Assembly: GCF_004341235.1 (NCBI RefSeq)
Contig: NZ_SLUP01000006.1
Coordinates: forward strand, 62,001-126,000
From: Mariniflexile fucanivorans
GTDB lineage: Bacteria > Bacteroidota > Bacteroidia > Flavobacteriales > Flavobacteriaceae
DNA length: 64,000 bases
Direction: 5' to 3'
In this document: positions 27,840 through 31,966 of the stretch, piece after piece
Layout of the letters: each line of letters begins with the position of its first letter
Numbering within the stretch: the stretch's first letter is position 1
The notes under the pieces: generated by a model
What the model was told of the DNA's origin: nothing
Database searches by the model: none
The model's input: the letters and a program-made list of their open reading frames with translations, nothing else
Made by a program: the position numbers and the translations under genes

Positions 27840-27918
27840 GCTTTTTTCTATTTTTTGGAATTCAAAAGTAACTTTTTTATAATTTTTGAGGGTTAATTTT
27901 GATAAACATTAACATTTT

Positions 27919-28773
27919 CTAAAGTTTATGAGTTAACCTTTCATAAGGAACGATTTTTGGAATAATATTTAAAGCAAACAACTCTTTTTGAATGGTGTTT
28001 ACTGTTTTTTTATCAATCAAGCTTTGAGACCATTCTGTAATACCTAACCATTCTTGTACATCTTCAAGCTGTTGTTCATAACGATTAGCAATGGTTCTAT
28101 CTATACTTGGTATGTCCTTAAATTCAATAGTGGTATTATTGATAATCTTCAAAATGGTTTTTAAATCTTCTTTATTCGATTCAATAAAACCGTCTCTAGC
28201 GGCAATTACAAAACAAGGCCAAGGCGTTGGGCAGTTGCCAATTCTTCTAAAAGTACCATTATCAACAAGTGGTTTGGTGGTAAATTTCTCCCACATAAAA
28301 TAATCGGCCGTACCAGTTGTTAAGGCTTCAACCGCACCTTCTAAATTGTTTATGACTTCAAAATTTAAATCTTTTTTTAAATCCCAACTATTTTTTTCAG
28401 CATTTATATAAGCCATTAAATGCGATCCTGAACCGTGTCTACTAATAGCTGCTTTGGTTCCTTTTAAATCTTCAATAGTTTTATAAGGTGAATTTTTGCC
28501 AACGTGAATACCCCAATTTAAAGGTGTTTGCACAAATGTTTGTACAATTTTACTAGGGTTGCCATCAATAATATCTTTAATAATACCCTCGGTAAGTATT
28601 ACGGCAATATCAATTTCTTCATTACGCAAAGCTTTACACATGGCGCCTGTACCTTCGGGGTAATCTTGCCAACGTAAATTGATGTTTTCATCTTTATATT
28701 CACCATTTTTTAAGGTTAAATACCAAGCTAAATTAAAATGTTCTGGTACGCCACCTATGTTTACTTTGTTCAT
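27919..28773 (-). CDS. Signal-less periplasmic-binding-fold protein
   Basis: A 284-residue protein with the fold of NitT/TauT- or THI5-type solute-binding proteins: VNIGGVPEHFNLAWYLTLKN, then NEEIDIAVILTEGIIKDIID, YKTIEDLKGTKAAISRHGSG and LTTGTADYFMWEKFTTKPL. It has no signal peptide or lipobox and no ABC transporter genes nearby, so it probably stays in the cytosol, and is either an enzyme or a ligand sensor. Signal-less proteins of this fold are known as enzymes (THI5 in thiamin synthesis, MqnA and MqnD in menaquinone synthesis). Its start is 12 bases after the nucleoside phosphorylase gene; the two are the last genes of a tight operon. Confidence 0.75.
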   Translation of the reverse strand: MNKVNIGGVPEHFNLAWYLTLKNGEYKDENINLRWQDYPEGTGAMCKALRNEEIDIAVILTEGIIKDIIDGNPSKIVQTFVQTPLNWGIHVGKNSPYKTIEDLKGTKAAISRHGSGSHLMAYINAEKNSWDLKKDLNFEVINNLEGAVEALTTGTADYFMWEKFTTKPLVDNGTFRRIGNCPTPWPCFVIAARDGFIESNKEDLKTILKIINNTTIEFKDIPSIDRTIANRYEQQLEDVQEWLGITEWSQSLIDKKTVNTIQKELFALNIIPKIVPYERLTHKL

Positions 28774-28785
28774 GAATTCAATAGT

Positions 28786-29655
28786 TTATTCAGTAAGTTT
28801 ATTAAGGGTATATGTTATAAGATTTGCAACAACTTGTGAAGGGTTTTTGCTAAATGTGCCATTGGCTCTATTAGCAATGACCGCATTTAAAGATACAGCA
28901 TGATGCCCAAGCAATTTTGCTAACCCGTAAATAGCAGAAGTTTCCATTTCAAAATTTGCGATATTCAAACCATTAAAATTGAAATGATCCATTTTATGGT
29001 TTAATGTTTTATCTTGAAGAGCTAAACGTAAAACTCGACCTTGTGGGCCATAAAAACCACCTGCGGTAGCCGTTAAACCTTTAAACGTTACCTCACTTTC
29101 AAGCTTTTTTTGTAGTAATCCACTGTTTTTTATTACAATTGGTTTTGCCTTATCAGGATGCCAGTTGGTATGTTTCATGAAAGCAGCTTCAATGTCTGGA
29201 TGGCAAATAGATTCTATTTGATAAAAGTGAAGCATACCATTAAGGTCGAGACCATAAGTGCTTAAAACAAAACTGTCTACAGGAATATCGGCTTGTAGTG
29301 AACCCGATGTTCCAATTCTGATTATTTCAAGACTCGTCAACTCTGTTTTTACTTGCCTTGTTTTTAAATCGATGTTAAAAAGGGCATCCAATTCATTTAA
29401 AACAATATCAATATTATCAGGACCAATGCCTGTTGAAATAACCGTTAATCGTTTTCCTTTATAAGTACCTGTGTGAGTTTTGAATTCTCTTTTTTGGGTT
29501 TCAAACTCTATCGTATCAAAATGTTTTGAAACTTTTTCAACACGATCTTGGTCGCCTACAAATATGATGGTTTTAGCAACATGCTCTGGTTTTAAGTTTA
29601 AGTGATATACGCTGCCGTCTGGGTTGAGTATTAATTCAGATTCTTTAATGGGCAT
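28786..29655 (-). CDS. Nucleoside phosphorylase (uridine phosphorylase-like, NP-I family)
   Basis: A 289-residue enzyme of the PNP/UDP phosphorylase superfamily. Motifs: VAKTIIFVGDQDRVEKVSKH (the phosphate site, with the family's GDPxR read as GDQDR), VISTGIGPDNIDIVLNELDA, IRIGTSGSLQADIPV and ANFEMETSAIYGLAKLLGHH (the ribose-binding MET block). It should split a nucleoside, with phosphate or water, into base and sugar; the substrate is not evident. It overlaps the DUF1835 gene upstream by 11 bases and is followed by the binding-fold gene after 12 bases, so all three belong to one transcript. Confidence 0.85.
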   Translation of the reverse strand: MPIKESELILNPDGSVYHLNLKPEHVAKTIIFVGDQDRVEKVSKHFDTIEFETQKREFKTHTGTYKGKRLTVISTGIGPDNIDIVLNELDALFNIDLKTRQVKTELTSLEIIRIGTSGSLQADIPVDSFVLSTYGLDLNGMLHFYQIESICHPDIEAAFMKHTNWHPDKAKPIVIKNSGLLQKKLESEVTFKGLTATAGGFYGPQGRVLRLALQDKTLNHKMDHFNFNGLNIANFEMETSAIYGLAKLLGHHAVSLNAVIANRANGTFSKNPSQVVANLITYTLNKLTE

Positions 29656-30586
29656 TATTAATGGTTTTTATTAATTTATTTTCTTTTTTATTGAATTGAA
29701 AATCCAATTTTCGAACACCGCCAAAAGTCATTGCATTATCAATTTCAAAAGCGAAATTGTGCAGCCCAAGTAAGGCTTCGTGTCCATACCTACTTAATTT
29801 TATCAGGTTTTCTTCTTCAATAAAAAAGATACTCAATTTTTCAATAATTCTATTAACCTGCATATCGCCATAGCCATAATACCCTTGGTAATTGAGTGCA
29901 TAGCCCAATAAGTGGTGTCTGGACTTTATGGTTTTATCTCTAACTATTTCCAAAATATTACGTTCCATCACGTTTAAACCGTCTTTAGTTTCCGGGAATC
30001 GTTCTAAATGAGCTTTTAAACAATTGCTTAAATATTTAAAAGATGATTTTTGAACAATAAGAGGTTTTAATAAATTATGATCCATTCCGCAATAAATACT
30101 CCAAGCATTGGTAGCCATATCTAAATCTTCTGGCGTAAGAGCTACTTTATCTCTAAAGTGTTTTAATAGTTGTCCCGAATTAAGTTCGGCCAGACCTTTT
30201 AAATGCTTGTTTCTTTCAACTTTGCCACTGCAAACTAAGTAGAGTGGAAGCTTGATTTTTTTCTGTTTGATAAGACTTATTACAGCTATCATATTGATGT
30301 GGCAGAATAAATCATATTCAAACCAAAGAATGATTTCTGAATAATTTTCAGGATGATTTAACTTTTCTAACTCCGTTTCAATTTCAGAAATATTTAATTC
30401 AACATCATAAAATGAACTAAAAAAATCTTTTCTAATTTTTGAAAATTCTTCTGAATATACCTGTTCAACAGTAGAGCCTTCACAAAGCATTTCTTGCCAT
30501 GTGATAATGTCTCCTTCAACATTTAATTCGTTGAGGCGATTGGTTAAAACGGAACCATTGGTAACGTGAAGCGGATGTTTTTCCAT
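29645..30586 (-). CDS. DUF1835 domain protein
   Basis: A 313-residue cytosolic protein with an N-terminal DUF1835 domain: LHVTNGSVLTNRLNELNVEG, DIITWQEMLCEG, and IILWFEYDLFCHINMIAVIS. The C-terminal half (about 170-313) is helical and has the conserved-looking HHLLGYALNYQGYYGYGD. Family members are common in Bacteroidota and Firmicutes and have no settled activity. It is sandwiched in an operon: 5 bases after the SUI1-like gene and overlapping the nucleoside phosphorylase by 11 bases. The close packing suggests a shared process, perhaps in nucleotide or RNA metabolism, which is inference. Confidence 0.8.
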   Translation of the reverse strand: MEKHPLHVTNGSVLTNRLNELNVEGDIITWQEMLCEGSTVEQVYSEEFSKIRKDFFSSFYDVELNISEIETELEKLNHPENYSEIILWFEYDLFCHINMIAVISLIKQKKIKLPLYLVCSGKVERNKHLKGLAELNSGQLLKHFRDKVALTPEDLDMATNAWSIYCGMDHNLLKPLIVQKSSFKYLSNCLKAHLERFPETKDGLNVMERNILEIVRDKTIKSRHHLLGYALNYQGYYGYGDMQVNRIIEKLSIFFIEEENLIKLSRYGHEALLGLHNFAFEIDNAMTFGGVRKLDFQFNKKENKLIKTINNAH

Positions 30587-30591
30587 ATAAA

Positions 30592-30921
30592 TTAACCGCC
30601 TACGCGTTTTACATTAAACCCTTTGTCTTTTAGCATTTTCATGATTTTATCACGATAATCGCCTTGAATAATAATTTTATCATCTTTAAAACTACCACCA
30701 ACACTTAGTTTTGTTTTAATTTCTTTGGCTAGAATTTTAAAATCATCAGTCGCTCCTGTATAGCCTTCCAAAATAGTAATGGGCTTCCCTTTACGTTTTT
30801 CGTATTTACAAAGAATAGGATCGTCTTGCATCCATATTTTTGATGTGTTTTCAGAATCCTCTACAGGTTCTTCTTGTATATGGTCCGGAAATAGGTTTTT
30901 TAATTGATCTTGTAAATCCAT
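30592..30921 (-). CDS. eIF1/SUI1-like translation initiation factor (YciH type)
   Basis: A 109-residue protein with a C-terminal SUI1 domain: RKGKPITILEGYTGATDDFK, then LSVGGSFKDDKIIIQGDYRD and MLKDKGFNVKRVGG, the same pattern as bacterial YciH and eukaryotic eIF1. The N-terminal 35 residues are acidic and unlike the domain, as usual. Bacterial homologues are thought to affect start-codon choice in stressed cells, but are not essential. It is 59 bases downstream of the oxygenase gene and 5 bases before the DUF1835 gene on the same strand. Confidence 0.92.
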   Translation of the reverse strand: MDLQDQLKNLFPDHIQEEPVEDSENTSKIWMQDDPILCKYEKRKGKPITILEGYTGATDDFKILAKEIKTKLSVGGSFKDDKIIIQGDYRDKIMKMLKDKGFNVKRVGG

Positions 30922-30980
30922 CTTTTTAAGTATTCAGTCTCATTCGCAGGTTCAATGATAAGAAAACTGCGATTGAAAAC

Positions 30981-31931
30981 TTATTTTTTTATTAAACCAA
31001 GTTCGATTAAGCGTTCAGTTAAAAATTCTCCAGCAGTAATATCATCAAATGCTTTTGGGTTATTTTTATCAATACAACCTTCTAAAACATCTAATTTCAT
31101 ATCACTAATGGGGTGCATAAAAAATGGAATGGAATATCGAGACGTTCCCCAAAGTTCTTTTGGAGGATTTATAACGCGGTGAATGGTCGATTTTAGTTTA
31201 TTATTGGTGTGTCTCGATAGCATATCGCCCACATTAATCATTAATTCATCGGGTTCCGCCACGGCATCAAGCCATTCGCCTTTATGGTTTTGTACTTGCA
31301 ACCCACGACCTTGAGCCCCCATTAACAGTGTAATTAAATTAATGTCGCCATGCGCTGCGGCACGAACGGCTTCTTTAGGTTCTTCGGTAATTGGTGGGTA
31401 ATGTATGGGTCGCAAAATGGAATTTCCGTTGTGTATATAATTATCAAAATAAGTTTCTTCCAAACCTAAATGCAAAGCCAAAGCACGTAATACATATTTA
31501 GCTGTTTTTTCAAGCATTCTGTAGGTTTCTTTTCCTATTTTATTAAATTCCGGAAGTTCATCAACAATGACATTATTGGGGTATTCCGCTTCCAGTTTTG
31601 GATTGTCGTCAACATATTGCCCGAAATGCCAAAACTCTTTTAAATCGCCTTCTTTTTTGCCTTTAGCACTTTCTTTTCCGAATGAAACATAACCTCTTTG
31701 ACCGCCAATACCTGGTATTTCATATTTGCGTTTCGTTTCAACTGGTAAATTGAAAAAATTCTTTACTTCGCTATATAAAGTTTCAACTAATGCATCATTT
31801 AAAAAATGACCTTTTAATGCTACAAACCCAATATCTTCGTAAGCTTTTCCAATAGCATCCACAAATTTTTGTTTTCGAACGGGATCTCCCGAAATAAAAT
31901 CACTTAAATCTACGCTTGGTATTGTGTTCAT
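30981..31931 (-). CDS. 2-oxoglutarate/Fe(II) oxygenase, isopenicillin N synthase family
   Basis: A 316-residue oxygenase. The N-terminal DIOX_N domain starts MNTIPSVDLSDFISGD, and the double-stranded beta-helix has the iron ligands H-x-D in AAAHGDINLITLLMG and the distal His in STIHRVINPP, with the 2-oxoglutarate Arg/Ser in RYSIPFF. The substrate is unknown. I chose the ATG at 31929-31931: an upstream in-frame TTG at 31959-31961 lies inside the promoter box TACATTTG (31959-31966), so it cannot be translated from that message. It heads the operon with the SUI1-like, DUF1835, nucleoside phosphorylase and binding-fold genes. Confidence 0.88.
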   Translation of the reverse strand: MNTIPSVDLSDFISGDPVRKQKFVDAIGKAYEDIGFVALKGHFLNDALVETLYSEVKNFFNLPVETKRKYEIPGIGGQRGYVSFGKESAKGKKEGDLKEFWHFGQYVDDNPKLEAEYPNNVIVDELPEFNKIGKETYRMLEKTAKYVLRALALHLGLEETYFDNYIHNGNSILRPIHYPPITEEPKEAVRAAAHGDINLITLLMGAQGRGLQVQNHKGEWLDAVAEPDELMINVGDMLSRHTNNKLKSTIHRVINPPKELWGTSRYSIPFFMHPISDMKLDVLEGCIDKNNPKAFDDITAGEFLTERLIELGLIKK

Positions 31932-31958
31932 AAGGAGTCTCTTTAATTTGTTGTATAG

Positions 31959-31966
31959 CAAATGTA
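31959..31966 (-). promoter_or_regulatory. -7 promoter box of the five-gene operon
   Basis: TACATTTG on the minus strand matches TAnnTTTG and ends 27 bases before the ATG of the oxygenase. It also decides the start codon, because the earlier in-frame TTG lies inside the box. Confidence 0.6.

Follow-up and report, generated by a model that had tools for sequence, protein, structure and literature searches.

What could hold together, in five adjacent genes, a 2-oxoglutarate (2OG) oxygenase, a SUI1-type translation factor, a DUF1835-type protein, a nucleoside phosphorylase and a cytosolic protein with the periplasmic-binding-protein (PBP) fold? The genes lie in Mariniflexile fucanivorans, within the 64,000-nucleotide stretch of DNA that was analysed here as a whole (the window; contig C6, positions 62001-126000, of a 4.74 Mb genome in 29 contigs). 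An earlier sequence-only reading had placed them on one transcript and proposed, by analogy with the futalosine pathway, that they make or break down a modified nucleoside. We tentatively favour a single-promoter operon of the Flavobacteriaceae with uridine-type phosphorolysis as its core step and with five products that would serve one process. Every protein of the operon belongs to an already known family.

The open reading frame list confirmed all five genes on the minus strand at the positions in Table 1, with the oxygenase starting at an ATG at 31931 (the listed frame opens 30 bases earlier, at a TTG). In transcription order the genes are separated by 59, 5, -11 and 12 bases, and the last three values bear out the tight packing of the final four genes described previously. 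The single transcript had been proposed to start from one promoter box, TAnnTTTG, which as a bare 8-mer occurs in the window at chance level (104 found against 114.9 expected). The position of the box was compared across 77 related loci that carry the oxygenase, SUI1, phosphorylase and binding-fold genes. With two loci that are cut off upstream omitted, 63 of the 75 readable loci have the box in the 80 bases that precede the oxygenase (mean 5.0 loci and maximum 12 in 200 mononucleotide shuffles), and it was found upstream of the inner genes at 2/77 (SUI1), 1/44 (DUF1835), 2/77 (phosphorylase) and 0/77 loci (binding-fold gene). Six of the 12 loci without a box (L036, L050, L054, L094, L101 and L137) have two more same-strand genes ahead of the oxygenase, and the remaining six are all labelled Aquimarina. 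In 32 of the 77 loci more than 500 bases separate the phosphorylase and binding-fold genes, mostly through intervening same-strand genes, and even there no box precedes the binding-fold gene. This pattern suggests lasting co-transcription and supports the single transcript on comparative grounds; we infer from this good comparative evidence that the five genes form a single transcription unit. A second TAnnTTTG box (27863-27870) sits just ahead of the thioredoxin-like gene that comes next after the operon, and this separate box makes the binding-fold gene the probable end of the unit. No riboswitch or other RNA family reached its gathering score between 25000 and 35000.

Table 1. Features of the five-gene unit, in transcription order (positions are those of the window).
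Feature	Position	Strand	Remarks
TAnnTTTG promoter box, TACATTTG	31959..31966	(-)	27 bases ahead of 2OG oxygenase start codon
2OG-Fe(II) oxygenase, DIOX_N type, thymine-7-hydroxylase-related	30981..31931	(-)	domains DIOX_N and 2OG-FeII_Oxy
SUI1/YciH-type translation factor	30592..30921	(-)	sole SUI1 match in genome
DUF1835-type protein	29645..30586	(-)	predicted fold like type IIA topoisomerase core
Nucleoside phosphorylase, uridine phosphorylase type	28786..29655	(-)	PNP_UDP_1; FYGPQGR motif, Q205/R207
Cytosolic PBP-fold protein, Ca3427 family	27919..28773	(-)	NMT1/Ca3427-like

The link to nucleosides that had been read from the operon was upheld through the phosphorylase. Known uridine phosphorylases (E. 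coli Udp, 6k5g and Trypanosoma brucei 3bje, the last being the nearest solved relative of the phosphorylase) share with it the fold family, the uracil-binding Q-x-R and an E-M-E motif; it differs from them in falling below the cut-off of the uridine phosphorylase equivalog TIGR01718 (96.3 against 280.3 bits). Up to E 0.1 its six NCBIfam matches are uridine and purine phosphorylase models. The Gln and Arg of its FYGPQGR motif correspond to residues that, in the sections of PMC7271239 drawn on here, contact uracil and have no counterpart in purine nucleoside phosphorylases. Of 20 copies from outside the Flavobacteriaceae, 18 retain the form FYxPQGR, one has FYGPQNR and one lacks the motif. Given the Q-x-R motif, the purine type of the other two PNP_UDP_1 proteins of the genome (both exceed curated purine phosphorylase cut-offs) and the finding of no PYNP_C protein in the genome, this enzyme is the best candidate for the uridine phosphorylase of the cell. 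It is also the sole candidate pyrimidine nucleoside phosphorylase found in the genome, its putative activity being read from sequence. Among the 20 outside-family phosphorylase loci, five have a DapF-like gene (label from sequence) behind the phosphorylase, and in three (L200, L201 and L207) the phosphorylase directly follows a same-strand gene with a resemblance to that of the tRNA uridine hydroxylase TrhO. We also considered a possible orthology to BT_4554, a drug-cleaving enzyme of Bacteroides; PMC10289814 names this enzyme.

In the reading that we tentatively favour, the phosphorylase most likely cleaves uridine or a 5-substituted uridine with phosphate, as RNA or nucleosides are turned over, to give the free base and ribose-1-phosphate. 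In the cytosol, a base or another small molecule derived from a nucleoside would be oxidised by the oxygenase, and the binding-fold protein would bind or transform a molecule of this kind, while the SUI1 and DUF1835 proteins would connect the unit with translation or nucleic acid. A role of the operon in pyrimidine salvage is plausible.

Conservation of the unit was examined in 247 Bacteroidota genomes, drawn evenly and searched with the binding-fold protein at E up to 0.001. Matches occurred in 40 genomes, 30 of which hold real relatives (ten weak matches of family f17, at E 3.4e-7 or worse, were not counted), and 25 of these 30 fall in the 27 Flavobacteriaceae genomes, the window genome included. 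The oxygenase, SUI1 and phosphorylase occur together in all 27. Two members of the family have no binding-fold gene, and in them these three genes still share one contig, strand and order, with a 3.3-kb gap behind the oxygenase in one of the two. The order oxygenase-SUI1-(DUF1835)-phosphorylase-binding-fold is kept at all 24 other family loci, ten of which include DUF1835. From a scan of GTDB representatives that yielded at least 572 relatives of the binding-fold protein, the best 80 were kept as named loci; the unit is present in 53 of them (34 with DUF1835), and gene order and strand are identical in all 77 unit-bearing loci (24 + 53). Of the binding-fold proteins at the named loci fetched, the Algibacter and Tamlana ones are closest (80-81%).

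A midpoint-rooted tree of 46 sequences, comprising the window protein, 18 of the 53 named operon loci and 27 non-operon loci, placed the 19 binding-fold proteins encoded in operons in a single clade (support 1.0). Because these proteins cluster and the linkage is kept across the family, the unit probably arose a single time, perhaps around a SUI1-phosphorylase core, and was then inherited. In three sister-family genomes the SUI1 and phosphorylase genes lie ~70 bases (G095) and about 6 and 11 kb apart. The operon thus appears to have formed at or near the base of the Flavobacteriaceae and to have been inherited vertically since, with a linkage specific to the family. The expectation that the genes stay together across Bacteroidota therefore held within the Flavobacteriaceae and failed outside them, where the genes are scattered.

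A mixed housekeeping operon carries nearly the same weight as a single process. Its genes would share a promoter and an expression level without a common pathway: the phosphorylase would salvage uridine, the SUI1/YciH-type protein would act in translation, and the oxygenase and binding-fold protein would work elsewhere. Several observations weigh against a single process. The other operon genes are missing around the binding-fold gene in 27 of the 80 named loci, some of them short. Outside the Flavobacteriaceae, the oxygenase and phosphorylase (cut-offs E 1e-70 and E 1e-30, respectively) are close together in none of the 24 genomes that have both, being on separate contigs or at least 289 kb apart, and their outside-family neighbours (20 loci each) are unrelated and include no consistent pathway partner. 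Of the 61 genomes sampled from the class, all have SUI1, 58 have the phosphorylase and 54 the oxygenase, and beyond the family these genes are mostly unlinked, which favours a mixed operon. The flanks are syntenic too: a divergent E1 dehydrogenase-like gene borders the unit in 64 of the 77 loci and a convergent uracil-DNA-glycosylase-like gene in 39 (both labelled from sequence), and such wide conservation implies that regional synteny of the ordinary kind accounts for part of the linkage. Furthermore, Flavobacterium and some others carry unrelated genes inserted between phosphorylase and binding-fold protein genes, and polyphosphate kinase-, GNAT-, DinB- and VOC-like genes (labels from sequence) have entered the unit in several genera. 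The altered substrate contacts of the oxygenase, described below, belong on the same side of the balance. Against a mixed operon stand the window itself, which keeps the five genes together with neither usual flank present, the nearly adjacent SUI1 and phosphorylase genes already seen in one of the three sister-family genomes (G095), and the box pattern with the lasting co-transcription that it suggests.

The oxygenase raises the possibility, which we consider unlikely, of a bacterial counterpart of fungal thymine salvage, in which the phosphorylase would free thymine or a related base, the oxygenase would oxidise its 5-substituent and the binding-fold protein would act as an enzyme that removes or carries the product. 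The closest solved relatives of the oxygenase are the uncharacterised 3oox (E 1.4e-74) and then the thymine dioxygenase 5c3p (E 1.6e-38), the thymine-7-hydroxylase of the fungus Neurospora crassa, which makes the latter the nearest solved enzyme of known reaction. The two belong to one family, and alignment to 5c3p shows that the Fe ligands (H194, D196 and H251), the 2OG residues (R174, Y178, R265 and S267, including both arginines) and the stacking Phe292 (as F271) are kept. However, among the six substrate contacts of thymine-7-hydroxylase given in the available sections of PMC4787775 (Asn87, Glu122, Arg190, Tyr217, Phe292 and Asn294), four are replaced in the window protein (Asn87 by Gln78, Glu122 by His102, Tyr217 by Ile197 and Asn294 by His273). 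These changes exclude a strict thymine-7-hydroxylase and indicate that the substrate of this relative is different or altered. Two PBP-fold enzymes acting on ring substituents, DszB (Z 18.4) and 4,5-dihydroxyphthalate decarboxylase (Z 17.0), have the same fold as the binding-fold protein, in keeping with thymine salvage, but a common fold shows no function, and the lack of linkage between oxygenase and phosphorylase outside the family also speaks against such a pathway. At five of the 20 outside-family oxygenase loci (L174, L176, L177, L178 and L182) a ChrA-like permease gene (label from sequence) lies behind the oxygenase on the same strand.

The binding-fold protein is a member of the Ca3427 family, which is found in fungi and Bacteroidota. 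It contains the PF22384 domain (69.3 bits against a gathering cut-off of 27), and its best solved sequence match is Ca3427 of Candida albicans (CA3427; 2x7p/2x7q) at E 1.5e-33 and 119.6 bits, compared with 26.2 bits for the best SsuA. Its predicted model (predicted local distance difference test, pLDDT, 95.8) superimposes on 2x7p with Z 34.3 and a root-mean-square deviation (rmsd) of 1.7 over 280 residues, ahead of SsuA (27.1), ThiY (24.4), Thi5 (22.8), MqnD (19.1) and MqnA (17.4). The comparison with THI5, MqnA and MqnD that the sequence-only reading had called for thus confirmed a shared fold, with all three ranking below Ca3427. The protein lies much nearer to the cytosolic Ca3427 family than to transporter subunits, and an SsuA-type subunit that merely lacks its signal is excluded by sequence and fold ranking. 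No signal peptide is apparent, the first beta strand of the model beginning at residue 2, and none of the adjoining window genes is an ATP-binding cassette (ABC) transporter gene, both as previously noted. A Thi5-type hydroxymethylpyrimidine phosphate (HMP-P) synthase was likewise rejected, since Thi5 is related in fold alone (Z no higher than 22.8, 14% identity).

Sequence, domain, fold, the Glu11-His12 pair and the Trp-Glu pocket residues are common to Ca3427 and the window protein, which differs in being bacterial and operon-borne. In the alignment with 2x7p the pocket residues Glu11, His12 and Glu164 (Ca3427 numbering) are kept as E11, H12 and E162, and the position of Thr167 is occupied by Thr165 in the window protein and by Met in L025, L006 and L012. 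Nine residues (E11, H12, W35, W87, R112, W161, E162, W185 and W242) do not vary among 46 bacterial sequences. The sections drawn on here of the report that solved the Ca3427 structure (Santini et al. 2011; PMC3073944) note flavobacterial relatives, leave the function open, reject the thiamine annotation for Ca3427 and put the family forward as a possible antifungal target; these sections do not mention the operon. They read a hydrophobic groove as the site of a hydrophobic ligand, an acyl chain or carotenoid, which would make the place of the gene in the operon incidental. We consider a long ligand of this kind very unlikely for the window protein, since the invariant residues at or near the groove (E11, H12, W87, R112, W161, E162, W185 and W242) look suited to something small and polar or cationic, and since the domain is fused elsewhere to a small-molecule-type methyltransferase. 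Invariant Trp, Glu, His and Arg at this site would suit a small aromatic or cationic ligand better than a long acyl chain. The open-licence PMC literature yielded no ligand for the Ca3427 family and no report of the operon or of Ca3427 function, although no search was aimed at the operon as such.

A bolder proposal, and a long shot, is that the Ca3427-type protein works in the cytosol as a PBP-fold enzyme, or as an obligate carrier, and that its substrate is an oxidised pyrimidine base or piece of a nucleoside made by the phosphorylase and oxygenase. If true, the operon would be a new bacterial pathway that takes apart modified pyrimidine nucleosides of RNA, and a family that fungi acquired and kept would gain its first function. 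Stable in tractable flavobacteria and joining a likely uridine phosphorylase to a candidate base oxygenase, the operon gives the Ca3427 family a testable gene context, with a short list of candidate compounds.

A second pointer to a small-molecule ligand is the fusion of a Ca3427 domain to an S-adenosylmethionine (SAM) methyltransferase domain in Phaeodactylibacter xiamenensis (Saprospirales; L115 6989-8665, 558 residues), seen also in a Bacteroidetes bin (L068 6812-8683). The best solved matches of the methyltransferase part are MitM and phosphoethanolamine N-methyltransferases, and a LysR-type gene comes next after the fusion in L115, with a counterpart in L068 assigned by clustering. Of 80 genomes of the Phaeodactylibacter group, 23 gave a match, and in two of these (the query's own and G262) it reaches into the methyltransferase part; the fusion frame of G262 (contig C99, L169) holds a run of unknown bases. 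A different combination, a Ca3427 domain with a C-terminal DUF1569 domain, occurs in a member of the Chitinophagales (L107 1502-2863).

Beyond the Flavobacteriaceae the contexts of Ca3427-type genes vary. They are often beside opposite-strand genes, and those in L056 and L096 apparently belong to another operon (in this context map L106 is not covered and L070 is not correctly mapped). One of the 27 named loci that lack the unit, from a Chitinophagales bin, has a SUI1 match (L138 7748-7951) 3.6 kb downstream of its Ca3427-type gene. Two Ca3427-type genes come from genomes labelled Gammaproteobacteria (Kangiellaceae; L091 and L092) and are nested among Bacteroidota in the tree; when 299 genomes of the labelled phylum were sampled, only the query's own matched. 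These two genes reflect either a transfer or a binning error.

A futalosine-like menaquinone route, favoured only by the general analogy of a nucleoside enzyme beside a PBP-fold enzyme, is extremely unlikely and, within the reach of the searches, contradicted by genome content: the genome contains no match to the MqnA/MqnD family PF02621 (the binding-fold protein gave none up to E 0.01), MqnD and MqnA stand low in the fold ranking, and no futalosine hydrolase is among the NCBIfam matches of the phosphorylase. For MqnB no genome-wide search was made, and each of the three PNP_UDP_1 proteins identified has its best match in another model.

Domain searches agreed with the family labels given earlier to the oxygenase, SUI1, phosphorylase and binding-fold proteins. 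The SUI1 domain scored above its cut-off, and like YciH/SUI1 factors the window protein is built on this domain, but it remains under the YciH equivalog cut-off (71.9 against 111.65 bits). The DUF1835 label stood in part: the window protein itself falls below the curated Pfam cut-off (17.6 against 21.1 bits), whereas 29 of 30 aligned orthologues, the window protein included, match at E up to 0.1. This alignment holds 30 of 35 proteins (the window protein and 34 from named loci); L082, L110, L118, L122 and L139 were omitted, L110 because its stretch held a stop codon, and the 10 family loci with DUF1835 were not used either.

The predicted DUF1835 model (pLDDT 92.1) resembles the core of type IIA topoisomerases along its whole length. 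Foldseek gave 47 matches at E up to 0.001, every one of them a type IIA topoisomerase (best 1.1e-6), and full-length comparison with the topoisomerase core gave Z 11.9 over 281 aligned residues at rmsd 4.3 Å, although a Z of such size can reflect a common arrangement. With its three helices and a hairpin, the C-terminal part of the model resembles a winged helix. In contrast to the topoisomerases, the protein has no Pfam match to their domains, and the acidic TOPRIM residues are not seen in their usual form. TOPRIM enzymes carry Glu and DxD acidic motifs. The window protein and its 29 orthologues show an 'NG[DS]' turn and an 'ExD' at what would be the TOPRIM Glu and DxD places. The predicted fold hints at nucleic-acid binding and not at topoisomerase activity. 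In the sections of PMC2770484 drawn on here DUF1835 is mentioned with function unknown, and no paper joining DUF1835 and the phosphorylase was found in the open-licence PMC literature.

Matches to three of the proteins were also found in the plasmid collection. The oxygenase matched 330 records, with identities of about 34% in the 25 listed, and the phosphorylase 62 (12 listed, of which three from Bacteroidota at 44-47%), and the binding-fold protein had one match, at 25%.

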